This document shows, piece after piece, positions 3,609 to 18,402 of a DNA stretch of 46,116 nucleotides. Positions within the stretch are counted from its first letter, which is position 1; each line of letters starts with the position of its first letter. The stretch comes from a virus, in the IMG/VR virus record IMGVR_UViG_3300023179_000177, positions 1 to 46,116 of that record; one strand, 5' to 3'. The position numbers were made by a program, and so were the translations under genes. The notes beneath the pieces were generated by a model, which searched no databases, was not told where the DNA came from, and saw nothing but the letters and a program-made list of their open reading frames with translations.

Positions 3609-4216
3609 TATTTTCTCGTTGCTCCTCTCAATACTCTGCCAGCAGTAATTGCATTGGTGACTGCGGTTGCAACACCTGATTGGGTTCCAGCGCCAGTTCT
3701 TATGAGCGTAGGTCCGTATCCAGCAAGTTTGGCTCCTGCGGCCCCTGAGAGTTTAGCAAATGACCTTAAGATTGCGTCGACCTCTGTCGGCCTAAAGAGT
3801 TGCCGAACACCTTCCTCAAATAGTTTGCTAGAATACCCGGCAGGGTTCTTACCAGTGAAGTCGGCAACAATGCTCTGGGCTTCCCTTGATCCTAATGGAG
3901 CCTGCCTCTCAACTGCCCCAATTCTTCTGGCAACTGTGGCAGATCTTGCTGCTGCTCTGTTCAGTGCGGAGAACTCATCTGCACCTTGAATTCCTGCCCT
4001 GGCAAGCCTGGCGAAATAGAAGGCAAGGGCACGGTATGGAGATACAGCCGCAATGTTCATCCCTCTGTTTCTGGCAATTTCTTGCGCCCTTCTCTGAGCC
4101 AGACGGTCTTGAGGAGTAAACTGCGTCCTGGACATCTGTGGAGTTCGGAACGCAGTTCTACCGCTAGAACCTCTAGCATTTCTGAAATCAAACGAATCGT
4201 TGTTTTTTCTTACCAT
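3608..4216 (-). CDS. Basic late protein of unknown function (202 aa)
   Basis: Not recognised. Begins MVRKNNDSFDFRNARG. It has many Arg and Gln residues in the first 60, then helical Ala/Arg segments (about 60-125: ALAFYFARLARAG, ALNRAAARSATVARR) and a Gly/Ala-rich C-terminus (LSGAAGAKLAGYGPTLIRTGAG) that could sit on or in a membrane. ATG at 4216 shares one base with the stop of the 2556-residue gene (TAATG) and is preceded by GAGGA about seven bases upstream. Coupling to both neighbours indicates that it is made with the late proteins. It may be a small internal virion protein. No catalytic signature was found. Confidence 0.6.
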   Translation of the reverse strand: MVRKNNDSFDFRNARGSSGRTAFRTPQMSRTQFTPQDRLAQRRAQEIARNRGMNIAAVSPYRALAFYFARLARAGIQGADEFSALNRAAARSATVARRIGAVERQAPLGSREAQSIVADFTGKNPAGYSSKLFEEGVRQLFRPTEVDAILRSFAKLSGAAGAKLAGYGPTLIRTGAGTQSGVATAVTNAITAGRVLRGATRK

Positions 4217-7200
4217 TATGGAATCCTCACTGTTGGTATATCTGGTTGAATTGGCCTGATTGTTGGGCGCATCCCTTCGTTGCTACCGAAGAGCCCTTTC
4301 CATAGCTCATCTGCTGCCAAAGATCCTGCGGTAGATCCTACAAACGTACCGATACCGCCGGATGCAAATGCTCCTATTCCGCCGCCAAGGATGGAACCAA
4401 CAATCCCGAACATTGTACGGCCCAGGTCGCCGCCTGTCGCAGCCGTAGCTGCAAGACCAGCGACAGAGCCGAAGATTCCTGCCTTTAGGGGGCTCTTGGT
4501 CAGAAGGTTTACTGAGTTAAGTCCAGCGGAGAACAGTGCTCCCTCTGGGGTTAGGTTGCCCTGAAGAGCCATGACTCCGACGTCTGCAGCCACGCCACCG
4601 CCAAAGTTTCCTTTAGGAGTCCTCAAGCCGAAGTCAATCTTCTTGAGCCCTGGGCTGAACTTTGGAAGAAGCTGGTCTGGTTGGAGCAGCCCAAGCAGTT
4701 TTCCTTGCTTGACTGACAGGTTCATAATTTCAGAGTCAGTATCAACGTACCCACCAGAGAAGTCTTCTGGATCGCGTCCCATCGCCTGATCCTGAAGCAT
4801 TTCATAGTCATTAGGGTCAACCACGTCTTCCCCAGACATTGATTGCTTCTGCTTCTTGTTAGGGTCGTACCCCTCAATGTTTAGCGGTGTGTCCGTTGGC
4901 GGATCAATCTCAAGGCTTGGGATAGTACCGGACTCGATAGCATCTACCAGGCGCCTAATCATGACAGTCGTTGGGCCTGGGGTTCCCCAATCGAACGGAG
5001 CCTTAAGTGTAGCTGGTCCGTTAAGATACTCGCGGATTACGCCCCAGGCGATTTCTCTTAGCGAAGTATCCGTCTTGGCGGCTACTTTGTCAATACCCCC
5101 GCTATATTTTCCGCTTTCATTTGGTGTTCCACGAAGGTAAGATAGCAGAAACTGTGTGTTTACGTCAAGCTTTCCGTTGTCATTCAATTGAATCGTGGCA
5201 ATCTTTGGCATCGTTTCGGGCACGGCTGGTCCTCCCTGTGAGGAAATAGTAATGCCAGACCCACCTGGAACAGCTTGTGAAGACTGGAAGTCTGTAGGCT
5301 GAATAAACACCCTTCGTGCGTTTTCTAGCTTCACCTTTCCGTCTTGTGTCTCAAGTAGCGTTCGGATCATCTGCTCGATAGCAGGCCCCTGCATGCGGCC
5401 AGACATATCAACTGACAGTGTCTTCCAGAAATTTCGGAAGAACATCTTCATCTCTACGCTGCCGATTGGCGGCAACTCCCCAAACTCTGGTAGCGTGGAG
5501 CGGATTGCTTCTTCAATGTTGCCGCTTGAAGCGTATTTGACAGCAACGGTCTTGGCAAATCTTGTGCCCATTCCGGCGGCCTTTCCGATAGCCTGACCGC
5601 TTACTGGGGCGACGTCCTCCTGAATAGTGCCACTGTCATACTCGTCTGCGTTTAGGTCAAACTCAATGACTTGCCCCTCTTCGTCAAGGCCAGTGGCTGC
5701 ATCAAATCCATCAATAGCCCTTTGACGCTTACGCTCCTTAGCCTGCGCTCGCCACTCAGCCTCGTTGACAATTTCAACGGTGCCGTCTGGTTTTGTAATT
5801 TGCATCATGCCTTCTTGGCCAGCAAAGCCACCCTGTCCCTGTTCCCACGATAGAATCTCTCTTGGGTTCTCTGCCTTGATACCCTCGTATAGCGCAGCAA
5901 CAAACTCCCTAGTGTCTCCTTCTGGGATAACAATTGCAGGAACCCGAAGGTCTCGTCCAAGTTTTCGTGATACTTCAGCAACAAGACGAGCAGCGATGTC
6001 CTGGCGCTCAGGGGCTGGGAGCGGCCTTCCGGCAAGATCTTTCGGATCTGGCAATCCAGCAGGCTTGTAGAACTCATTGTAGAATGCTGTGGCTTTATCG
6101 CCAAGGGCCCCGGACACACGCATTACATCAGGTCCTCCACTGGCAATATTCTGCAGCACCTTGTCTACAGCATCTGCTGTTTCAACTGAAACGGTAGCAG
6201 GCTCAAGCATTCGATAGATTGGATACATGAACTCATCTAGTGGCGTTCTAGTCTCAATCCGTGGAGCAACCTCGTGTCGATGATACTTAGGGTCAAGAGA
6301 ATCGCTCCACGACTTGCGCAGCGTGCCCTTAGCCGCTTCTGTCAGGGCCATAGCAGCTAGCCGTGCAGCGTCAAGGCTCTCTCGAACAATAGAGTCAAAT
6401 GTATCTCCACCGATACGCGCAGCTTCAATTGCTGAGGCTTTGTCTGCCAAGATAATTGTTGGCTCAGTAAGGCCAAAGCGCTCCATGTCCGACTTACTAA
6501 ATCGATTGCCGTATCCCATCTGTACAACGGCCTCTTCAGAAAGACGAAGCATGTACGTAAGGGCGCGAATGATATACATTGCGCCGCTATCACCGTCCAT
6601 TGTTTCAGTTCGAACAGTGTGACCAAACTTCTCAGGCGAAGCCAAGATATCATGCACTGTATAAGATCCGCCAATTGCCCTCTGGATTGCAGTGGTGGAT
6701 GGGGACGCCAACGCCATTGCCTGATCGCGGGTAAGCGTTTGACCAATAATGCCGCCGGAATAGCGCCGGCGTCCCTGCTCCGTGCTAATCGTAATTTTCC
6801 TATCGGCCATGAAGTTTGTCTGGGCGTCCTCAAGGCGAACCTTTGCCTTGGTGATTGCGTCCTGATCGCCAGACTGCTCTGCTGCCGCAAGCTCCTCCTG
6901 TGCGTGGGAAAGGTCATGAGCTGCTTTTTCGTTAACAGTAGACACAAGCCAGTCTGGGTATTCAGTGATTTTATACGCAGGGGCGCCAGCCATAAGTCCA
7001 GCAGGTTCAACGGAACTCTGCATTTTACCAACCTTGGCAAACGGAGCAGCCAGCGCCTCACCAGGAACAGGGCTGACCCTTGCTGCTGCTTGCTCTGCAC
7101 CAGTCATGCTGGAGTTGTAGATCATATCTTTTGCACGAGCAGCTGACCAGTTTGGTGCTAAGTTTGTGCGGAACGTGCCAGTCTGCTCGGTAATTGACGC

Positions 7201-10200
7201 AACAATTTCTGCCTCAAGTTGAGGGAAGATATCGCCATTGATGGCAAGGATCTCCAAGGCAGAGTACCCATCGAATGCAATGGCGGTGCCAAGTTCGTTG
7301 AGCAGGTTACCCATCTGGTTGGATTCAAATCCTGGCCCATCAGGAGAGAAGGCAACATCTAGTTGCCGAAGGGTTTCCTTCATTGCCTCCTGGCCATAAA
7401 TTTGGTTCGGATCAGTATGCTCAAACTGGTAGCCCTCAAGACGACGAATTTGATAACCGCCGTCAGCGGTTCGCTCTACTCGGAATGGATATACCTTACG
7501 ATGCTGGATGAAGCCAGTCTCGCTTGAGCGGTTAGCGACAACCGTACCATTCTTAAGCACAAGATATTTCGACACCACGATTGGCCGGATATTAAGTTTA
7601 AACTCTACGTTTTCGTTTAGGCCAACTCCTAAATCAACTGGTGACGTAGGATTTATAACTGACCTGCCAAGATCATTAATCTCGACATCGGTAATGATAC
7701 CCTGGTTAAGGCTTGCAATCTCCGTTGCAACAGGTGCAGGAAGAACGTAGTCTCCCGGGAGAAGTTCAACAAAGTTTTTATCAAATTTTGGCGGCTCATC
7801 ACCATACAAAGCCTTGCCTTCTTCGCTTGTCATGTATGCCAGAGCATACGCCTTGCCGTGTATTGCCGCAACTTCGTCTAGTACGCCCTTCCACTTTGCA
7901 TGCTCCCTGCGCTTCTTGTCAAGGTACCACTGCGGCAATGTAACCTTCATTGCTTTTGGCTTTCCTTCCGCGTCAACGTCTCCACCAACAACAATAAGTC
8001 CTCGCCATCCGCGTGCATTTACGCGCTCAGTTGCAACGTTAGCTGCCGCCTGGACGCCAAACATCTCGGCATATGCTCCGCCTTCGCCAAACTTTGGGGC
8101 AAGTTCTGCTTCGTACGTGTTTTCAAAGTCAGTCGTGTCCCAACTAATTGGATCTGTGCCTGTCGAACCAATAACCTTGTTCAGGTCTTGATTAAGAATA
8201 CGAAGTGCATCAGTTGCCTGTCGTCGCAAGAACGCAAGGCGCTTACCGCTAATACCACTTGGCAATGCTCGATACGTTTCAAGTTCTGGAATTGGAGCAA
8301 TGGCGCCCTGCTCTGCGGTTCCGCCGCCAGCGCCTATTGCAACGCCAGCAGCGTATCGATCCATGGCGTCTATTGCGCCCTGTACCCTCTCGATTCGTCG
8401 GCGCAACCCATCAGCCTGCGTAGCAAGGCTCGGCTTCTCAACCTTAACTCGTTCTACCTTTGGAGCCTCAATCTGCTGATCCCCAGCGATAACCCCTTGC
8501 TTGCCAAGGCGAGAGCGGTACTTAAATCCTGTGCGATAATTGAATAGCGAGAAGTCTGCTCGGTCATCAAGCTTTCGTACTGAGGTATATCGACGGATGA
8601 CGCCTAGAGCTTCTTCTATGCCAAGCAGGTCGGCAATTGGGCTCTTCTTTGTTCTGGTAAATACCTCTGTATTCCCGCCGTCAATGAAGCCATCTAGGTC
8701 AATTGAAGCCAAATCATCTCCGCCGCCATTTGCGACATCCCAAATGCCAACTTCGTCGACTACCCTCTGCAGGTCGTAGATAGCGTTGTCCTTGGTGATG
8801 CTAGGGATTCCACGTGAATCACCCGCACGTGCTACAGCGACGGTCTTCTTCTTGCTCCTTACCGGAACTGGCAGCAAGTCAAGGTCAAGTGAGCGGTACA
8901 TCTTTGGCTCGCCTGCTCGCGGAGACGATTGCGGAACGAGTCCGACCTGGGCTGACGCTAGTTGCCGAAGTTTTGCTTGCGTGCTTCTTCCATATAGGGA
9001 AGGCGCAGCCTCTGCGGCGGTCATGTCAACGCCAAGTGCCTCTACTTCCTTTGCTTTTGACGTCAGTCCGGTGTATTCACCAGAACTCATGGTCTTAGAC
9101 AGGCCCTTGATCATGGCCAGCGAGTATGGATCTCCAATTTCATGCAGAGTTCGAGAGAGTTCTAGCATGAGTGCCGCCATCTCGGCTCGCGTTTCACCGC
9201 TAAAGCGAACATTTCCGGAAGATTCTACGGTATTCATGTACCGAATTGCCATAAAGGCGTCGGCCATCACCTGGGCGACGGTCTTCTTGTCGCCAATGAT
9301 GGGCTTTCCTGGCTTAAAATCAAGTTCTGGGGGAAGAGTTATGCCCATTTTTGCTGCAAGAGCGTTGATACGCCCACGAACTGTCCGTCTAGGGTCGATT
9401 CCAGGCACAGGCTCCTGGTTTAGGCTGTCAAACTTGAAGCCGTACGCGCCGGATGCGCCAAGTGTGCGGTAGAGATTGGTCTTCTGCAGGGTTGAAAGTC
9501 CATCAAACCCCTGCATCTTGCTTCCCATGGTTGATGAGCGAGCGGCAGTTTCTCGCATCGTCTTAAATTCTTCAAGAAGTTTAGCCGTAAAGCCCTCTGG
9601 GGTGTCCATCTCGGGACCAGCTGCGCCAACTTTAACGTTGTCTGCACCTGTAGCTGGCTGAACAGTGATATCGCCAAACTCATTTGGCGGAATATTTACT
9701 GCGCCCTGCTTTGGCAGGTTGACTTGGTTCTTTGGATCTTGAATCCACTTGATGAGACGCGGATCTTCTGACGACTCTGGGTTGGCAATTGCTGCCTCTG
9801 CACCCTTAGCAAGGGCCTGAAGGAACGGGGACTCAAGACCATTACCTTCCCAACGAGCTGCGGCCTGTGTCCAGTGCACGAGAAGCTCCACCCACTGCTG
9901 GGGAGTTGTCCCCTCGCCAACGGCGGCCATGTTTTGCTGGACCCTCTCAAGAAGTCTTGGGTTTTGGCGCAGCTTCTCAGCAATGATTCTCGACATGAGG
10001 TCGATTTCTTCTGGGGAAACAGTGTCAGGCTTGTTTGCTTCTGGGCTCAACGCAAGGTAGGCGTGCTCAGACGACGGGTATACCTTGCCCTCGAATACCA
10101 CCGGGTAGCGGTTTTTAATATTGCCATGCTCAAGCGAGCTAGATGCCCCGCCCTTTGCTGTCCTTGGAAGATCGCTTGTGCGGTTTGTTAGTGCAGCAAG

Positions 10201-11886
10201 GAAGCCATTACGCTTGTTGGCGGAGTATACGTTGTTGGGGATATCCCATGGATTCTCTGTCGGAAATCCGCGCTTACGTTTGCTTTCCTCTTTTGCCGCT
10301 GCCGCAGCCTCTCGACTAGTGCTGAGTGAAAACGTAGAGCGACCCCTCGGGGCAATCCCGGCATCTCGACCGGGGGCAATCTGGTACATATTGCGGCGGA
10401 TAAGGTTCATCGTGTATTCCCCACCGCTCATTTGCGGACCGAACGGTCGGCCAAGCGAACGAGCAATGGCTCTTACCTCTGCGTCCACCGACTGCAAATC
10501 TGCTTCGCTGTGTTGCAGAACGCCACCGGCTGTACTCTTCCGGCTATGGCCCTTCCACGAGTGCGAAACAACTACGCCGCCTCGAGCGGCATGGGTAGTC
10601 TCGAACGCTGTGTCTGAGCCCTCTGCTCCGCCGCTATGGACCTCTACGCTTGGGTCGAGCGACTGAACATACGCCTGGATTTCTGCAAATCCGTTCTCTG
10701 TAAGTTTGCGCGTGCCGATACCGGCAATAGACTTGACATCGGTAGGAGGCCCGTCAACAGTCTTCCAGCCGCCAGCAGATCGCTGTACCTCTGTAGCGGT
10801 ATACCAGCGGTTGCTGATCTCGTCGTATACGTAAACTGGAATGCCGCGTAGCAAGGCTCCCTCTACCGCCCAGCCAGTGCCGCCATCAACCTTGCCGCTT
10901 CCAAGAAGTTTGCCAACGGCGACCACGGCGTCGACGTCCGTTTTTGTGGTGTTTGCGACGGTCGCGTTGGCTTCAATAATTGTGGTCTCTACATTTCGCC
11001 TAATTGGTTCGGTTGGCTTCCTGGCACGAGTCCCTGAGGCGGGTGCCGCGTTGCTGATTCCAAGTTCACTCAGCCTGCTATTGAGCCTCTCCCAAATTGC
11101 TGGGGCGCTGGCCTTAAGATTAGCCTTGCCTGTTCCAATTCCCCTGGAAGGAAAGTAGACATCCCTACCTGACGCAAGTGCAGCTTCAATCTTCCTCAGC
11201 TGGGCGTCCATAAGTTTTGAGAAGGTGGAGTCAGTTAAGTCCTCATCAGTAAGGAATGTGCCTGGGTCCCTCTTGGTTGGAACGCCAATCCACCCATCGC
11301 GGCCTGCGGCTGCCTCTGCCTGTCCGGCACCAGGCGTGGCTGTGCCTGTGTCGGCATTAAACATGTTGGAACCCCAAACGGCGATCTCGCCATCTGGGAC
11401 CGTGGATAGTTCGTCAACGTAGATGACCTGGCCACGACCAGCCTCTGTGGCCGCCGGGCCAGCCTTCAGTTCGGCCTTTACCTCTGGGCTACCGTACTTT
11501 TCTACGAAGTAGTCGACCGACCAGCGCTCGGTTTTAGCAATCTTCTGCCACTGCTCTAGGGTGAGCTTCTTTGGGTCAAACTCAGTATTGCTCACGACAT
11601 AGACAAACGCCTCACGACCATCCTGGGACGTAATCCGGTATGTTGCCCACTCACTCCAGCCTGGGCCCCACTTAGCGTCCCTGACGGTGCTGATCCGCCT
11701 ACCGGCAAGGATTTCGTCAAACGTCGTTGCTTCGCGGCCAGGGATATCTACAGGGTCTTTATCATAGCTATAGCCCATCGTCCTCGTTCCGGCGATCTGC
11801 ACTGGGTTATCAGGCTTCGGGACGAGCTTGTATACGATGTAGTGTAGGATGTCGCTATTGATGTCTCTAGGGCTATTTGTAGGCAT
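4216..11886 (-). CDS. Giant multidomain 'polyvalent' protein with SLOG-like and NADAR-like domains (2556 aa)
   Basis: The first and largest late gene. The N-terminal third looks like a chain of small domains. Residues about 152-276 (VWGSNM, a Gly-rich stretch, GVPTK, then SRGIGTGKA and APAIWERL) match the pattern of a short phage/bacterial domain of the A1S_2505/DUF7831 type. Residues about 298-395 (VDGGTGWAVEGAL, PVYVYD, SIAGIGTRKL) and 385-500 (HSGGAEGSDTAFE, then LIRRNMYQI) look SLOG/DprA-like, the nucleotide- or ADP-ribose-derivative-sensing Rossmann fold. Residues about 553-700 (NRYPVVFEGKVYPSSEHAYL) resemble NADAR, a family linked to ADP-ribose/NAD derivatives. Residues 700-2400 are helical and unassigned. 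The C-terminus (about 2440-2540) has glycine-rich hydrophobic runs (GSILGGGIGAFASGGIGTF) as in membrane-interacting virion proteins. ATG 11886 follows AAGGAGG. Delivery with the virion and an anti-defence role are inference. Confidence 0.75.
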   Translation of the reverse strand: MPTNSPRDINSDILHYIVYKLVPKPDNPVQIAGTRTMGYSYDKDPVDIPGREATTFDEILAGRRISTVRDAKWGPGWSEWATYRITSQDGREAFVYVVSNTEFDPKKLTLEQWQKIAKTERWSVDYFVEKYGSPEVKAELKAGPAATEAGRGQVIYVDELSTVPDGEIAVWGSNMFNADTGTATPGAGQAEAAAGRDGWIGVPTKRDPGTFLTDEDLTDSTFSKLMDAQLRKIEAALASGRDVYFPSRGIGTGKANLKASAPAIWERLNSRLSELGISNAAPASGTRARKPTEPIRRNVETTIIEANATVANTTKTDVDAVVAVGKLLGSGKVDGGTGWAVEGALLRGIPVYVYDEISNRWYTATEVQRSAGGWKTVDGPPTDVKSIAGIGTRKLTENGFAEIQAYVQSLDPSVEVHSGGAEGSDTAFETTHAARGGVVVSHSWKGHSRKSTAGGVLQHSEADLQSVDAEVRAIARSLGRPFGPQMSGGEYTMNLIRRNMYQIAPGRDAGIAPRGRSTFSLSTSREAAAAAKEESKRKRGFPTENPWDIPNNVYSANKRNGFLAALTNRTSDLPRTAKGGASSSLEHGNIKNRYPVVFEGKVYPSSEHAYLALSPEANKPDTVSPEEIDLMSRIIAEKLRQNPRLLERVQQNMAAVGEGTTPQQWVELLVHWTQAAARWEGNGLESPFLQALAKGAEAAIANPESSEDPRLIKWIQDPKNQVNLPKQGAVNIPPNEFGDITVQPATGADNVKVGAAGPEMDTPEGFTAKLLEEFKTMRETAARSSTMGSKMQGFDGLSTLQKTNLYRTLGASGAYGFKFDSLNQEPVPGIDPRRTVRGRINALAAKMGITLPPELDFKPGKPIIGDKKTVAQVMADAFMAIRYMNTVESSGNVRFSGETRAEMAALMLELSRTLHEIGDPYSLAMIKGLSKTMSSGEYTGLTSKAKEVEALGVDMTAAEAAPSLYGRSTQAKLRQLASAQVGLVPQSSPRAGEPKMYRSLDLDLLPVPVRSKKKTVAVARAGDSRGIPSITKDNAIYDLQRVVDEVGIWDVANGGGDDLASIDLDGFIDGGNTEVFTRTKKSPIADLLGIEEALGVIRRYTSVRKLDDRADFSLFNYRTGFKYRSRLGKQGVIAGDQQIEAPKVERVKVEKPSLATQADGLRRRIERVQGAIDAMDRYAAGVAIGAGGGTAEQGAIAPIPELETYRALPSGISGKRLAFLRRQATDALRILNQDLNKVIGSTGTDPISWDTTDFENTYEAELAPKFGEGGAYAEMFGVQAAANVATERVNARGWRGLIVVGGDVDAEGKPKAMKVTLPQWYLDKKRREHAKWKGVLDEVAAIHGKAYALAYMTSEEGKALYGDEPPKFDKNFVELLPGDYVLPAPVATEIASLNQGIITDVEINDLGRSVINPTSPVDLGVGLNENVEFKLNIRPIVVSKYLVLKNGTVVANRSSETGFIQHRKVYPFRVERTADGGYQIRRLEGYQFEHTDPNQIYGQEAMKETLRQLDVAFSPDGPGFESNQMGNLLNELGTAIAFDGYSALEILAINGDIFPQLEAEIVASITEQTGTFRTNLAPNWSAARAKDMIYNSSMTGAEQAAARVSPVPGEALAAPFAKVGKMQSSVEPAGLMAGAPAYKITEYPDWLVSTVNEKAAHDLSHAQEELAAAEQSGDQDAITKAKVRLEDAQTNFMADRKITISTEQGRRRYSGGIIGQTLTRDQAMALASPSTTAIQRAIGGSYTVHDILASPEKFGHTVRTETMDGDSGAMYIIRALTYMLRLSEEAVVQMGYGNRFSKSDMERFGLTEPTIILADKASAIEAARIGGDTFDSIVRESLDAARLAAMALTEAAKGTLRKSWSDSLDPKYHRHEVAPRIETRTPLDEFMYPIYRMLEPATVSVETADAVDKVLQNIASGGPDVMRVSGALGDKATAFYNEFYKPAGLPDPKDLAGRPLPAPERQDIAARLVAEVSRKLGRDLRVPAIVIPEGDTREFVAALYEGIKAENPREILSWEQGQGGFAGQEGMMQITKPDGTVEIVNEAEWRAQAKERKRQRAIDGFDAATGLDEEGQVIEFDLNADEYDSGTIQEDVAPVSGQAIGKAAGMGTRFAKTVAVKYASSGNIEEAIRSTLPEFGELPPIGSVEMKMFFRNFWKTLSVDMSGRMQGPAIEQMIRTLLETQDGKVKLENARRVFIQPTDFQSSQAVPGGSGITISSQGGPAVPETMPKIATIQLNDNGKLDVNTQFLLSYLRGTPNESGKYSGGIDKVAAKTDTSLREIAWGVIREYLNGPATLKAPFDWGTPGPTTVMIRRLVDAIESGTIPSLEIDPPTDTPLNIEGYDPNKKQKQSMSGEDVVDPNDYEMLQDQAMGRDPEDFSGGYVDTDSEIMNLSVKQGKLLGLLQPDQLLPKFSPGLKKIDFGLRTPKGNFGGGVAADVGVMALQGNLTPEGALFSAGLNSVNLLTKSPLKAGIFGSVAGLAATAATGGDLGRTMFGIVGSILGGGIGAFASGGIGTFVGSTAGSLAADELWKGLFGSNEGMRPTIRPIQPDIPTVRIP

Positions 11887-12142
11887 AGTCCTCCTTAAAC
11901 CCCTTTTAGGGGCCGCCGTTATGATCTATTTTATTTCCTGTCTAGGAAAAACGGCTCTACTATATATGCAGTGAAAATGCCGTTTTCTGCAACTTTTGTC
12001 ACGATTTTGTTTGTTTAAGATTTCTTATCACTGGGGTATACCGGTGTCGGAGCGGCTAGGTAACCCAATTCTGCGGGCGTTCGCAGAAAAGCCCGCAGGG
12101 GAGAGGGGGTTGCCCAATGGCAAACCCCGACTTTCGGTATCC

Positions 12143-12163
12143 CCCTCAGCGGTATGGGCGTAG
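12143..12163 (+). repeat. Leader repeat, copy 1
   Basis: Contains CAGCGGTATGGGCGTAG (12147-12163), identical over 17 bases to copy 2. The core lies in the loop of a possible hairpin, CAGCGG paired with CCGCTG (12168-12173), inside a larger pairing of GGTATCCCCC with GGGGGTACC. It lies in the 5' leader of the gene at 12279. Confidence 0.7.
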
Positions 12164-12198
12164 CCCAGCCGCTGGTCTGGGGGTACCTTATGGCGTCC

Positions 12199-12219
12199 CC
12201 CGCAGCGGTATGGGCGTAG
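12199..12219 (+). repeat. Leader repeat, copy 2
   Basis: CAGCGGTATGGGCGTAG at 12203-12219, 56 bases after copy 1. The flanking GCAGC can pair with GCTGC downstream (about 12227-12232), again placing the TATGGGCGTAG core in a loop. About 60 bases upstream of the ATG at 12279. Confidence 0.7.
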
Positions 12220-12278
12220 GTAGCCCTGCTGCGGTGGGCGCTGGGGAACTGCATACGGGGGCAAGAAAGGAGACGATT

Positions 12279-12794
12279 ATGTCCCGTAAGACAGTTCAGT
12301 TCACGATTGCGAAGGACGCAATCACTACGATGCTGGCAGCCGTGCCGAATGGCTGCTGGTTCTTGTTCCAGAATGTCCGCTTCCAAGGTCTTCAGGCTAA
12401 CAAGCCTGCCGACTCACGAATGTCGGAGAAGAAGGAACTCGGTTATCGTTTCGTCGGGCAAGCAGACGAGAACGGTCAGATGACCGACCTCGCTGCCACG
12501 CTTGAATCGCCAAGCATCACTTGGCGTGAAGACGAAGAGGGCAATCGCATTCAGGGTACGAACTATCCGAGTGTGTTGTTCCGTGGTGACCTTGCCAAGG
12601 CTGCCGTGAAGCACGCCAAGGCTTGGGACACGGTGTCCATCTTCGGCAAGGTTGAGACGAGCCGCAAGGTTGATAAGGACGGCAAGGTATCAGTATCAGT
12701 CGTCCATACAGCCCTGCTGCTGCTTGACGGCACTCAGGAAGTCAGCACTCAGTTGGCTTCAGATGAGTCCGTTGACTTGTCCATCCAAGCCTAA
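12279..12794 (+). CDS. Possible single-stranded DNA-binding (OB-fold) protein, monocistronic
   Basis: 171 residues starting at ATG 12279, preceded by AAAGGAG six bases upstream; a longer frame upstream has no ribosome site and would read through the leader repeats. The central part (about 105-155: VLFRGDLAKAAVKHAKAWD, then VSIFGKVETSRKVDKDGK and VSVVHTALLLL) follows the strand order of bacterial/phage SSB, where a 'GKLAE..KKGD.V..EG.L.T' segment precedes the last OB strands. The C-terminus is acidic but lacks the typical DDDIPF tip. It stands alone: a leader with two repeat elements in front and a strong intrinsic terminator straight after, so it is likely made in quantity as a single-gene transcript. 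The SSB assignment is by pattern only and could be wrong. Confidence 0.55.
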   Translation: MSRKTVQFTIAKDAITTMLAAVPNGCWFLFQNVRFQGLQANKPADSRMSEKKELGYRFVGQADENGQMTDLAATLESPSITWREDEEGNRIQGTNYPSVLFRGDLAKAAVKHAKAWDTVSIFGKVETSRKVDKDGKVSVSVVHTALLLLDGTQEVSTQLASDESVDLSIQA

Positions 12795-12818
12795 ACAATA
12801 ACCCCGTAGCAGTTCCCC

Positions 12819-12863
12819 GCCCCTGCTGGCAGCCCACGCTGCTGGCAGGGGCTTTACTTTTTT
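12819..12863 (+). terminator. Intrinsic terminator after the SSB-like gene
   Basis: GCCCCTGC (12819-12826) pairs with GCAGGGGC (12845-12852). An inner CAGC/GCTG stem closes a four-base loop, and TTTACTTTTTT follows directly. This is a classic Rho-independent terminator 25 bases after the stop codon. Confidence 0.9.
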
Positions 12864-12878
12864 CGCCCCGCACCAAGT

Positions 12879-12929
12879 TTGACTCGACGGGGAACACGTA
12901 ATGTAACAGATGCAATACGGGGAACACGT
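12879..12929 (+). promoter_or_regulatory. Sigma70-type promoter with paired operator-like repeats
   Basis: TTGACT (12879-12884), 17-base spacer, TGTAAC (12902-12907) gives a fair vegetative promoter reading into the plus-strand gene train. The 13-base sequence ACGGGGAACACGT occurs twice, at 12887-12899 inside the spacer and at 12917-12929 just past the expected start site, with a 30-base period (about three helical turns). This placement is what is expected of two operator sites for one regulator. The regulator is not identified. Confidence 0.6.
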
Positions 12930-13021
12930 TGTGTCCTTTGGTGTAGGGCTGGGGTGATAAGCAGGTAGGTGGGGAAGCGAGCAAGTGTATTACCCCCCTA
13001 CTGGGAGTTCTTTTAGCACGG

Positions 13022-13042
13022 CCTACGGCTATATGGGCGTAG
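13022..13042 (+). repeat. Leader repeat, copy 3
   Basis: Ends in TATGGGCGTAG (13032-13042). Flanking TAGCACG and CGTGCTA pair perfectly around it, with an inner CTACG/CGTAG stem, so this copy sits in a stable hairpin. It lies in the leader of the gene at 13092, followed by a GC-rich stretch and the AGAAGGGAG ribosome site. Confidence 0.65.
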
Positions 13043-13091
13043 CGTGCTAGGGTAGGCGTGCGCGTGGCGTGCGCAGAAGGGAGTATCACAT

Positions 13092-13394
13092 ATGACAAGC
13101 TTATGTCAGGATTGCGGACGCAATGAGTACGGTTGCGATTGCGTTGCTTTCAAGACAAGTCTAACCTGGCCAACCATATACGGTGGAGAGATAGAAGACT
13201 CAGACCTAGTACGGCTTCGTATGAATAAGCCTGCTATTACACTCTTGATTGTAGCGTTGGAAGAACTTAGACACCAGCGTACAGTGAGAGGAAGCAAGGA
13301 AGGGGGTGTGCTTATAAGGGAATGCGACGATGTGCTTAGTGCGTTATCGTTGAATGTAATGTTGATGGCACGATTTGTGTCAGAAGGAGAGTAA
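13092..13394 (+). CDS. Small protein with N-terminal cysteine cluster (100 aa)
   Basis: Begins MTSLCQDCGRNEYGCDC: Cys5, Cys8, Cys15 and Cys17 make a compact CxxC...CxC metal-binding knuckle typical of small phage zinc fingers. The rest is mainly helical with a hydrophobic segment (ITLLIVALEELR). First gene of the plus-strand train, behind the operator-bearing promoter and leader repeat 3. GGGAG lies eight bases before the ATG. Function unknown; a role in early takeover of the host is plausible from position only. Confidence 0.65.
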   Translation: MTSLCQDCGRNEYGCDCVAFKTSLTWPTIYGGEIEDSDLVRLRMNKPAITLLIVALEELRHQRTVRGSKEGGVLIRECDDVLSALSLNVMLMARFVSEGE

Positions 13395-13395
13395 G

Positions 13396-13659
13396 ATGTC
13401 TCAGTACACACTGGTTAAGGAGCACAAAGAGGTAGGCAAGCTGCCTCTGGAGTATATCTACGGCTTTGACGCCGGCCTTGGTGAGTACTTTCTTACCATC
13501 GCAGACCCAAATGCTGAAGATTATTTCCCTATTGTAGGCACACTGGCAAATGTGCACGGCAATCGCTACAATATGCTTGACGCTTTTGAAGCGCTTGGCA
13601 TTACGTACGATGTGCCAACCATTCACCGCGAGCTAATCCAAATGGATTTGCCGCTATAA
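13396..13659 (+). CDS. Hypothetical protein (87 aa)
   Basis: Starts MSQYTLVKEH at ATG 13396, preceded by AAGGAGAGTAAG that overlaps the end of the previous gene. Acidic and aromatic-rich (YIYGFDAGLGEYFLTIADP), ending LIQMDLPL. No family recognised. Followed by 232 bases without a gene that hold a structured RNA candidate. Confidence 0.6.
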   Translation: MSQYTLVKEHKEVGKLPLEYIYGFDAGLGEYFLTIADPNAEDYFPIVGTLANVHGNRYNMLDAFEALGITYDVPTIHRELIQMDLPL

Positions 13660-13891
13660 TATTCCGTGCCACGTGCAGGGTGGCTAGTTGCTGGACGAAT
13701 AACCAGTCGGGACGATAAGGGTGCTGGGCTTGGGCCTAATCAGCAGGGGTGCCAGCACCAACGGGCAGGCGAGAGCCAAAGCCCGTCTCCGCAAGGGGAT
13801 AAGCGTCAGTCTCACGAGACGAGAGTGTTTACATTCCCCTGCCAGTAGATTGCTGGCAGGGGTAACACTTATAGTAAGAAAGGATAAGGAA
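13660..13891 (+). ncRNA. Candidate structured RNA / leader between two small genes
   Basis: A 232-base gap packed with nested inverted repeats. GGTGCTGG pairs with CCAGCACC (about 13719-13757). ACGGGC pairs with GCCCGT and encloses GGC-GAGA-GCC, a GNRA tetraloop hairpin. CTCC-GCAA-GGGG is a second GNRA hairpin. TCTC/GAGA follows. Last is a ten-base perfect stem, CCCCTGCCAG (13836-13845) and CTGGCAGGGG (13853-13862), without a T-run, about 30 bases before the ATG at 13892. GNRA caps in series are typical of folded RNAs rather than of simple terminators. It does not match a riboswitch, tRNA, tmRNA or hammerhead pattern that I know. It could be a stable ncRNA processed from the transcript or a cis-regulator of the next gene. 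Confidence 0.5.
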
Positions 13892-14419
13892 ATGGGTTAC
13901 GATATTGTTACAGTTGAAGGCAATGAGGAACAAGCAAAGAAGTTTGCTGCCAAGTACCAGTATACCTATCTCTTTGACAAAGAGACAGGGCAGTTCGTCG
14001 GCGGGGGTCAAGTGTACTTCCGAGCCAACATCTGGGCTATGGCACCGCTTCGGCGCGTAATGGACAGCCTGCTATATGTTCTCAACATTGATGAGAAAGA
14101 TACACAAGAGTTCATTGAATCTATCAGCTGGAACGATGGCCGGCTGGTAACATCAGAGTTTCTTACAAAGGTGCTCGATAAGTTGGACAAAGTATCCAAC
14201 GGGGCAGTTGAAGAATACATTAAGCCTATTGTTACAACAGTAACACTTGAAATGTGGAACCCAGAGGAAGACTCTAAGGTTAGTATGCTAGTTGAAGGAC
14301 AGATAGTCCAGCGTGATTACTCGTTGGAAGAGAAAGCCAAGGACACCACTGCTATCGCAATGGAGTTCCTGGATTATATGCGAGTTGCCAAAGACCTTGG
14401 CGGCTTTGAAGTTTGGTAA
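13892..14419 (+). CDS. Hypothetical protein (175 aa)
   Basis: MGYDIVTVEGNEEQAKKFA at ATG 13892, with AAGGATAAGG just before; an in-frame upstream extension would cross the structured RNA and is rejected. Mixed alpha/beta composition, acidic, with helices at about 50-130 and a C-terminal helix (TTAIAMEFLDYMRVAKDLG). It resembles small actinophage-type hypothetical proteins in style, but I recognise no domain. The structured leader upstream suggests that its expression may be individually controlled. Confidence 0.6.
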   Translation: MGYDIVTVEGNEEQAKKFAAKYQYTYLFDKETGQFVGGGQVYFRANIWAMAPLRRVMDSLLYVLNIDEKDTQEFIESISWNDGRLVTSEFLTKVLDKLDKVSNGAVEEYIKPIVTTVTLEMWNPEEDSKVSMLVEGQIVQRDYSLEEKAKDTTAIAMEFLDYMRVAKDLGGFEVW

Positions 14420-14430
14420 GGAGAAAGTAT

Positions 14431-14877
14431 ATGTATCAGAAGTATGAGTATCAAATCGTTCGCAAAGAGAAGAACCCAGATGTATTTAGGATTGAAAGTC
14501 CGACACAAGCACATTCACTATTCACTAACTTTGCCGATGAGGCAACGCGTGAATCGTTGTTTGTTCTGCCAGTTGATGGACGCAACAATCTAATCGGCAT
14601 TCACGAGATTTATCGTGGCACCGCTACTGGTACAAGCGTACGAGTTAGCGAGATTCTTTCATCGTGTCTGCTAGCACAAGGCGTTGGTCTAGTGCTTATT
14701 CATAATCACCCAAGCGGTGACAGTCAGGCATCAGATGAAGATGTTCGTCTAACTATGGATGTTCTCAAAGCTTGTAGGTTGATGGATATTGAAATGCTTG
14801 ACCATCTTGTCATTGGCAAGAACTCATTCACAAGCATTCGTTCGCAGCAGCCTAATATCTGGGGGGGTGAAGAGTAA
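14431..14877 (+). CDS. radC-like: RadC-like JAB/MPN+ domain protein
   Basis: 148 residues. The JAMM zinc site of the RadC/JAB family is intact: Glu59 (HEIYRG), His91 and His93 in HNHPSG (91-96), and the SDxD segment at 101-104. Full-length bacterial RadC has an N-terminal helix-hairpin-helix region; here only the catalytic-type domain and a short beta N-terminus exist. Family members are predicted metallo-peptidases or isopeptidases, and 'DNA repair' is a historic label; the substrate is unknown. Such stand-alone copies are common on phages and plasmids, often near anti-restriction genes. ATG 14431 follows AAGGAG by eight bases; the longer frame starting at 14413 uses a poor start. Confidence 0.85.
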   Translation: MYQKYEYQIVRKEKNPDVFRIESPTQAHSLFTNFADEATRESLFVLPVDGRNNLIGIHEIYRGTATGTSVRVSEILSSCLLAQGVGLVLIHNHPSGDSQASDEDVRLTMDVLKACRLMDIEMLDHLVIGKNSFTSIRSQQPNIWGGEE

Positions 14878-15119
14878 TGTTCAGTCAGGAAGTGTTGCTT
14901 GAATACCATTTGGAACACAACATCTTCCCGCCAGTGCCAAGGGATATGTGGCCGTATGTCAAAGCGGCCCTATCCCTGGCACAGGATGGCTATTGGGACC
15001 ACGAGGTAGCAGTGGACAACAGAGTGTTGACACATGCTATCACGGGGGAAGCCATCCTTGTGCGTGAAGTAATCGATACAATGCGATTATACGATATGGT
15101 CGCAGAAGAGGAGTTGTAA
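14877..15119 (+). CDS. Hypothetical protein (80 aa)
   Basis: Starts at ATG 14877, sharing a base with the preceding stop (TAATG). Begins MFSQEVLLEYHLEHNIFPPVP. Mainly helical and acidic at both ends; residues 60-80 form a helix (REVIDTMRLYDMVAEEEL). No recognised family. Confidence 0.55.
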   Translation: MFSQEVLLEYHLEHNIFPPVPRDMWPYVKAALSLAQDGYWDHEVAVDNRVLTHAITGEAILVREVIDTMRLYDMVAEEEL

Positions 15120-15120
15120 C

Positions 15121-15483
15121 ATGACACGAGATGAAATGGTTGAAGTGCTAAAGAATAGCAAGGCTATGGAATACATTGATGGCGATGGTCATACTTTGTA
15201 TAAGCCAGACGCGTTGATTGCGGCGGGGTTCCCGGCAAGCTTTATTAAAGATTATACTTGGGTTCAGAAGTCAGACTATTCTAATCCAAAGTATGTAATC
15301 TTTGATAGAAATGGCCAGCCAGTAGACGAGATGACAGCAGTTGCTGCTCTTACTCTACACTATGCCGTAGCTTCTGCGCTTGACCTACAAGGTGGTGTTG
15401 ATTACGATGACACTATCATTGGTCGTGGCTCACAAGCAGCCGAGTTGTCTCGTGCTATTAGAAAGGTAATAGAAAATGTGTAA
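15121..15483 (+). CDS. Hypothetical protein (120 aa)
   Basis: Starts one base after the previous stop, with GAGGAG about nine bases upstream. Mixed helix and strand; a YVIFDRNGQPVDE segment near residues 58-70 and a long helical C-terminus. No metal site, membrane segment or catalytic motif is seen. Likely one of the early accessory genes. Overlaps the next gene by 8 bases. Confidence 0.55.
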   Translation: MTRDEMVEVLKNSKAMEYIDGDGHTLYKPDALIAAGFPASFIKDYTWVQKSDYSNPKYVIFDRNGQPVDEMTAVAALTLHYAVASALDLQGGVDYDDTIIGRGSQAAELSRAIRKVIENV

Positions 15484-15763
15484 AGAGTATAACGGTTGGA
15501 CTAACTGGGAGACTTGGGTAACTAAGTTATGGTTAGACAATGACGAATATGTATACAATCTTATTTGTGAAATGGTACGAGAGGCAAGGTCAGACGACGG
15601 GGAAGGCATCTCCGGCGATGACCTTCACGAGTTTGTCTGGAATACCTGGGACCCAGATGGTATGTATGTGCACGGCAGTTTGTTCTGCGAGTTCGTAGTG
15701 TCTGGTATGAACATGGTGAACTGGGACGAATTGGCTAACGCATACAATGCAGATGGATACTAA
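15476..15763 (+). CDS. 'NGWTNWETW' phage family protein (DUF7249-like)
   Basis: 95 residues, beginning MCKEYNGWTNWETWVTKLWL. The motif N-G-W-T-N-[YW]-E-T-W followed by a short hydrophobic and N/D-D-E segment is a well-known signature of a widespread small phage and plasmid family of unknown function (DUF7249, from memory). The rest is acidic with several Trp and Cys residues. Position in a train of small early genes fits other phages that carry it. A 76-base spacer containing leader repeat 4 follows. Confidence 0.65.
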   Translation: MCKEYNGWTNWETWVTKLWLDNDEYVYNLICEMVREARSDDGEGISGDDLHEFVWNTWDPDGMYVHGSLFCEFVVSGMNMVNWDELANAYNADGY

Positions 15764-15771
15764 TAGCCCAG

Positions 15772-15792
15772 CCTTCGGCGGTATTGGCGTAG
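15772..15792 (+). repeat. Leader repeat, copy 4 (diverged)
   Basis: CGGCGGTATTGGCGTAG at 15776-15792 differs from the 17-base core of copies 1 and 2 at two positions. It is followed by a TAGAG/CTCTA mini-hairpin and then AAAGGGGG before the ATG at 15840, the same order (repeat, GC-rich stretch, purine-rich ribosome site, ATG) as for the other copies. Confidence 0.55.
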
Positions 15793-15839: not shown

Positions 15840-16100
15840 ATGGTTCTAAATAGTACAGATAAGATTAGTAATCTTGAATGGCAAATCAAAATATATGACC
15901 TAAACAATAAACGCAGGTCATATGCATATTACGGTGGCTCACTAATAGAAGTCCTACTGGACGGCGAGCCTCATGACTTTATCAACATTCATAATGTTGG
16001 TAAGAACGGCATGTCTGTTTACAGCATGGCAGACCTGCTCGAAGTTATAAATGCTTGGTTGGAAGGAGACATCAATGTCCATTCGGATAACTCCTATTGA
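15840..16100 (+). CDS. Hypothetical protein (86 aa)
   Basis: MVLNSTDKISNLEWQIKIYD at ATG 15840, chosen because AAAGGGGG lies six bases upstream; the longer frame from 15747 would translate the leader repeat. Beta-rich first half and acidic helix second half (MADLLEVINAWLEGDI). No family recognised. Overlaps the start of the next gene by 26 bases. Confidence 0.55.
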   Translation: MVLNSTDKISNLEWQIKIYDLNNKRRSYAYYGGSLIEVLLDGEPHDFINIHNVGKNGMSVYSMADLLEVINAWLEGDINVHSDNSY

Positions 16101-18377: not shown

Positions 18378-18402
18378 CTGGCGTGTTAAGGCGTAGTTGG
18401 TT

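Follow-up and report, generated by a model that had tools for sequence, protein, structure and literature searches.

A phage-specific leader motif shared by an SSB-like gene and two further early genes, a possible mRNA operator in a small phage group

A 21-nt unit, [CG]CYNYRGYNRKM-TKGGCGTAG, recurs four times in the virus record from IMG/VR that we analyzed, whose whole 46,116 nucleotides are referred to here as the window. All four copies are on the plus strand, in the gaps that precede the genes at 12279 (two tandem copies), 13092 and 15840, and related phages carry the motif at the same places. The interpretation that we favor, with about even confidence, is that the motif is a cis-acting operator in the mRNA leaders of these three early genes, which would be read by a phage-specific trans-acting factor and would control translation.

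The sequence CAGCGGTATGGGCGTAG is found exactly at 12147-12163 and 12203-12219, a match to TATGGGCGTAG ends at 13042, and the version in copy 4, TATTGGCGTAG, ends at 15792 with one change. An original prediction, made from the letters of the window, had claimed a four-copy element in non-coding gaps of the plus strand, and all four copies were found where it had placed them; the 11-nt core that it gave as the unit is present as well, but the shared unit is longer. It had also set every copy within 110 bases of a gene start. This is so for copies 2, 3 and 4, with 59, 49 and 47 nt from the end of the core to the ATG, but not for copy 1, which lies 115 nt before the ATG at 12279. Copy 4 is placed within the operon, directly 3' of a stop codon. 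The features of the region are collected in Table 1.

Table 1. Features of the motif region (positions in the window)
Feature	Position	Strand	Basis or remark
5' part of the leader, conserved, predicted structured	12030..12130	+	Four-phage alignment and consensus fold
Hairpin around copy 1	12136..12187	+	Outer stem arms 12136-12144 and 12179-12187
Motif copy 1	12143..12163	+	CCCTCAGCGGTATGGGCGTAG; exact match; syntenic copy in three relatives
Hairpin around copy 2	12194..12240	+	Tandem-region z scores; own pairing rank 1-2 of 24
Motif copy 2	12199..12219	+	CCCGCAGCGGTATGGGCGTAG; exact match; syntenic copy in three relatives
Leader arm of long-range pairing	12243..12260	+	Directly before ribosome site of SSB-like gene; pairs with 12802-12818
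Gene 1, SSB-like OB-fold protein (predicted), 171 aa	12279..12794	+	Foldseek, VIA, weak profile hits
Trailer arm of long-range pairing	12802..12818	+	Directly after stop of SSB-like gene
Hairpin after gene 1, terminator-like in the window	12819..12852	+	Relatives keep the hairpin, with a weak T-run in G2 and G3
Possible closing stem, copy 3	13014..13049 (13014-13020 with 13043-13049)	+	Seen in sequence; not above chance, 0.34 of shuffles
Motif copy 3	13022..13042	+	CCTACGGCTATATGGGCGTAG; syntenic copy in G2 and G3
Gene downstream of copy 3, Cys-rich N terminus	13092..13394	+	66-71% identical in two relatives
Motif copy 4	15772..15792	+	CCTTCGGCGGTATTGGCGTAG; syntenic copy in G2, G3, L165 and L167
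Gene downstream of copy 4	15840..16100	+	39-62% identical in two relatives

Near relatives of the window were not found among 50,697 phage records, nor did a search of the genome collection find a relative; in named phages there were neither DNA matches nor matches to the proteins of the genes downstream of the element or to the terminase. Relatives were obtained by protein and leader searches, namely G2 (L004), G1 (L114) and G3 (L146 and L155), with G0 denoting the window phage itself, and records L165 and L167 were brought in through a gene further down the operon. Together, six phage records hold 16 copies, in the same four places upstream of the same three genes and in sense orientation; G1 contributes copies 1 and 2 only, because its contig stops after gene 1. 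The distance from core end to ATG is near-constant despite differing flanks: 115-127 nt for copy 1, 59-63 for copy 2, 45-49 for copy 3 and 42-47 for copy 4. A regular expression derived from all 16 copies matches nowhere else in the window, whichever strand is searched. Scanning the collection with GGTATGGGCGTAGNNC gave at least 119 stretches, and among the matches listed only L114 is related, the others being chance-like; GGTTAGATTGGCGTAG gave several copies in G2 only. A sequence model of the four window copies finds, among the relatives, only the G1 copies, because the 5' half differs in the others. The motif is so far limited to one small phage group.

As judged by comparing the copies, the trait common to all of them is a linear sequence whose 5' half is particular to each phage. 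The 9-nt TKGGCGTAG hardly varies. In the 8 nt before the core, copies from different places within a phage have an identity of 0.89, and copies from the same place in different phages 0.56. The 5' flanks behave in reverse (0.36 within a phage, 0.50 across phages). In 5000 label permutations the value of the motif half was never reached, a result that describes labels rather than independent events, with few lineages behind it (three signal types: G0/G1, G2 and G3). The pattern speaks against local structure alone and against inheritance by place, since both predict the reverse. Because the sites change together within a phage and their surroundings do not, selection by one cognate factor is indicated, which suggests that one trans-acting, phage-specific factor reads the motif. 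Conversion would have had to take in so short a stretch and spare the flanks, and we consider it less likely.

The principal rival to an mRNA operator, rather improbable in our judgment, is a double-stranded DNA site, that is, an operator or promoter element of the early operon for a phage-specific regulator or RNA polymerase. Cognate DNA sites do diverge in this way, one half phage-specific and the other constant, and the copies do lie before genes, but the motif has no symmetry, an A+T-rich melting region is missing from its G3 type (GGTGGGCTGGGCGTAG), two copies stand 56 nt apart before one gene, and the structural genes on the other strand of the window have no copies in front of them. Phage sites that are asymmetric, oriented and intergenic and have a single phage protein as reader are otherwise familiar from the stoperators of L5 and other cluster A phages, named in PMC3203893; stoperators are 13-bp DNA sites for the repressor, present in many copies and without hairpin context. 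A promoter of a single-subunit RNA polymerase was also considered and rejected, as the G3-type core is G+C-rich and copies are absent before the structural genes.

A bare GGCGTAG 7-mer occurs at 18390-18396, after the operon terminator, and is kept in nine records (the window, L004:9805, L160 and L162-L167). It lacks the phage-specific half and is not directly followed by a gene on that strand; a core-like 7-mer in this position fits a DNA site and speaks against an mRNA operator. A kept CGACGGGG-like stretch follows the 7-mer and is also present after gene 1.

Two further explanations rest on the sequence of the motif. The last codon of the core is a stop, and all copies in that frame read P/A-x-x-x-W/L-A-stop, with the 21-nt unit aligning free of gaps, so that the motif could encode the end of a leader peptide. 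An ATG nine codons upstream of the stop is present in 5 of the 16 copies (G0c2, G1c2, G2c2, G3c4 and L167c4), but the other 11 have no conserved start; the frame is broken by ATG TCC TAG in copy 4 of L165 and by a TAG nine codons before in copy 1 of G3, and GCG TAG is without any synonymous variation. We regard a leader peptide as very unlikely. A pairing site for a small phage RNA would likewise explain a conserved sequence with a phage-specific half, but complementarity did not exceed that of scrambled controls in the phage stretches searched, a search complete for the window only, and this explanation seems to us barely credible.

The evidence for RNA is strongest at the tandem copies. The region of copies 1 and 2 folds far better than shuffles, with z scores of -5.0 in the window and -7.5, -6.9 and -4.2 in three relatives. 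The arms of the copy-1 outer stem in the four phages are, in order, GGTATCCCC/GGGGGTACC, GGTAGACCC/GGGTCTACT, TGATAGTCC/GGGCTATCA and GTAGCAGCC/GGCTGCTTT; they are 97% paired, with double changes in 6 of 9 pairs and a covariation score reached by none of 500 shuffles, although they were registered by hand, which favors pairing. A registration-free test, comparing own with foreign partners over all assignments, ranked the own pairing first of 24 for copy 1 and 1-2 of 24 for copy 2, as against 1-3 of 6 for copy 3 and 42-55 of 120 for copy 4, where own partners have no advantage. An automatic consensus fold of the whole leader gave no covariation gain, because the stem arms are not aligned by sequence. 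All folds computed here are nested ones; a pseudoknot, which is a mark of gp32-type operators, would lie outside this class.

At copies 3 and 4 the enclosing stems are weak or absent (z -0.4 to -2.7). Given the 40 nt downstream, equally good enclosing stems arose in shuffles at frequencies of 0.05 for copy 1, 0.07 for copy 2, 0.34 for copy 3 and 0.96 for copy 4, which has no stem. The GUA of the core is mostly in an apical loop in copies 1 and 2 (mean unpaired 0.7-0.9), except in copy 2 of G3, but mostly paired in copies 3 and 4, and the pairing of the GGCGUAG core varies among the copies. The hairpin thus belongs to the tandem pair and not to the motif as such. The three stems quoted in the original prediction (CAGCGG/CCGCTG, GCAGC/GCTGC and TAGCACG/CGTGCTA) are all in the sequence, but the conserved RNA loop that it drew from them applies to the covarying hairpins of copies 1 and 2 and not to copies 3 and 4. 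For the choice between RNA and DNA this cuts both ways: copies 3 and 4 without a common fold are as a DNA site would have them and weigh against an mRNA operator, whereas copies 1 and 2 occupy the same point of covarying RNA hairpins, which a DNA site does not account for. Under the reading that we favor, copies 3 and 4 presumably act as RNA too.

Tandem structured copies upstream of a terminator-like hairpin, in a motif that is strand-specific, would also suit a nut/put-like antitermination signal, which loads a factor on the transcript, or an RNA processing signal cut by a nuclease. Copy 4, however, is within the operon after a stop codon, and a terminator-like hairpin was looked for nearby and not found; copies 3 and 4 share no stem that could be cut, and the spacing to the AUGs points to translation. 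We consider antitermination or processing unlikely.

A second structural feature of the first leader is a pairing of about 17 bp with the trailer of gene 1. Double changes occur in 7 of 15 pairs, giving three distinct sequences in which 98% of the pairs are kept; none of 500 shuffles matches this, and the own pairing ranks first of 24. Judged by this complementarity, the pairing could close the SSB mRNA into a loop. Inverted copies of one protein site could be another source of the complementarity, but RNA is the better fit to a wobble in G2 and to a 1-nt bulge that G0 and G1 retain. The strongly conserved 5' part of the leader (12030-12130) contains CGGAGCGGCTAGGTAACCC and two hairpins and possibly forms an independent structured RNA.

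The product of gene 1 is predicted to be SSB-like. The best 50 Foldseek matches are all SSBs (best E 2.5e-6), VIA comparisons with SSB and PriB structures reached a Z of 8.7, and eight of nine weak profile hits, all over the same stretch, are bacterial SSBs; the structure model itself is of moderate quality (pLDDT 63). The genes at 13092 and 15840 have no Pfam or PHROG family match, and the structure model for 13092 is of low confidence and was left out of account.

For the mRNA operator we propose the following mechanism. The first leader would present two motif copies in tandem RNA hairpins, and the trans-acting factor would act on the mRNA, most likely controlling translation of the next gene, whose start lies 42-63 nt further on. 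The gene 1 product itself is the leading candidate for this factor, under autogenous control: free SSB, as it accumulates, would bind its own leader and those of the two further early genes and stop ribosome loading at all three. SSB is possibly the reader, given its position, the modest model (pLDDT 63) and precedent.

The precedent is the gp32 of T4 and RB69, which represses its own mRNA through a folded element beside the ribosome site, the operators diverging between phages (PMC535899). Alike here are an SSB-like gene (on a moderate model), a folded leader element upstream of the ribosome site, with tandem hairpins and copy 2 at 59-63 nt before the AUG, and divergence between related phages (PMC535899). 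Unlike gene 32, the present system has a repeated conserved 21-nt sequence, tandem hairpins and two further genes that carry the motif. The UUAAA/UAAA repeats that lie between element and AUG in gp32 leaders were not found in 12220-12278, and because they are absent and SSB binding is only putative, we do not class the motif as a gp32-type operator; the likeness is one of analogy, not membership. For gp43 of T4 the operator is a hairpin some 40 nt upstream of the AUG, comparable as a replication-protein target but a single site with another sequence at another gene (PMC3014915). The SAS of cluster K mycobacteriophages, GGGATAGGAGCCC, is present in 11-19 copies, 3-7 bp from start codons (PMC3203893). 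SAS and ESAS resemble the motif as short oriented repeats upstream of several non-structural genes, and the ESAS consensus varies between subclusters much as the phage-specific half does, but unlike copies 1 and 2 the ESAS has no RNA pairing (PMC3203893). The motif does not belong to the SAS, as its sequence differs and it is 42-127 nt from the ATG.

Several other elements of the neighborhood deserve mention. The sequence CTCTACTATATATGCA at 11955-11970 is invariant in four phages and is probably a promoter sequence; it lies in the divergent region between gene 1 and the gene for a 2556-aa protein (4216-11886, minus strand), which adjoins the early operon and has DUF7831 as its sole match. An intergenic element of about 225 nt at 13663-13890 (L155 minus strand; L167:1-232) is almost the same in three phages, although their proteins are far more diverged. 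It has a covarying stem, is absent from G2, has no Rfam match and has the look of a structured RNA distinct from the motif.

Operators in phage mRNAs are a known kind, as are repeated sites in leaders. We did not find a description of a repeated phage-specific element, partly in tandem hairpins, common to an SSB gene and two early genes: Rfam 15 gave no match at the gathering score and chance-level hits only at a relaxed threshold, and the papers listed by a literature search on the core string were all on unrelated subjects. Of the new cis-acting RNA suggested in the original prediction, recurrence in relatives and RNA hairpins at copies 1 and 2 are supported; a hairpin loop at copies 3 and 4 is not. 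It is a tentative possibility, in our view short of even, that the whole is an undescribed phage RNA regulon, with a sequence-specific element that is present twice in the SSB leader and recurs at two uncharacterized early genes, its 5' half co-diverging with a phage-encoded RNA-binding regulator, and the SSB mRNA looped by leader-trailer pairing. If so, it would offer a small natural system in which an RNA (or nucleic-acid) signal diverges along with its reader, and the three signal types (G0/G1, G2 and G3) with their cognate proteins would be suited to swap tests. It would also give the uncharacterized genes at 13092 and 15840 their first functional link, to SSB.
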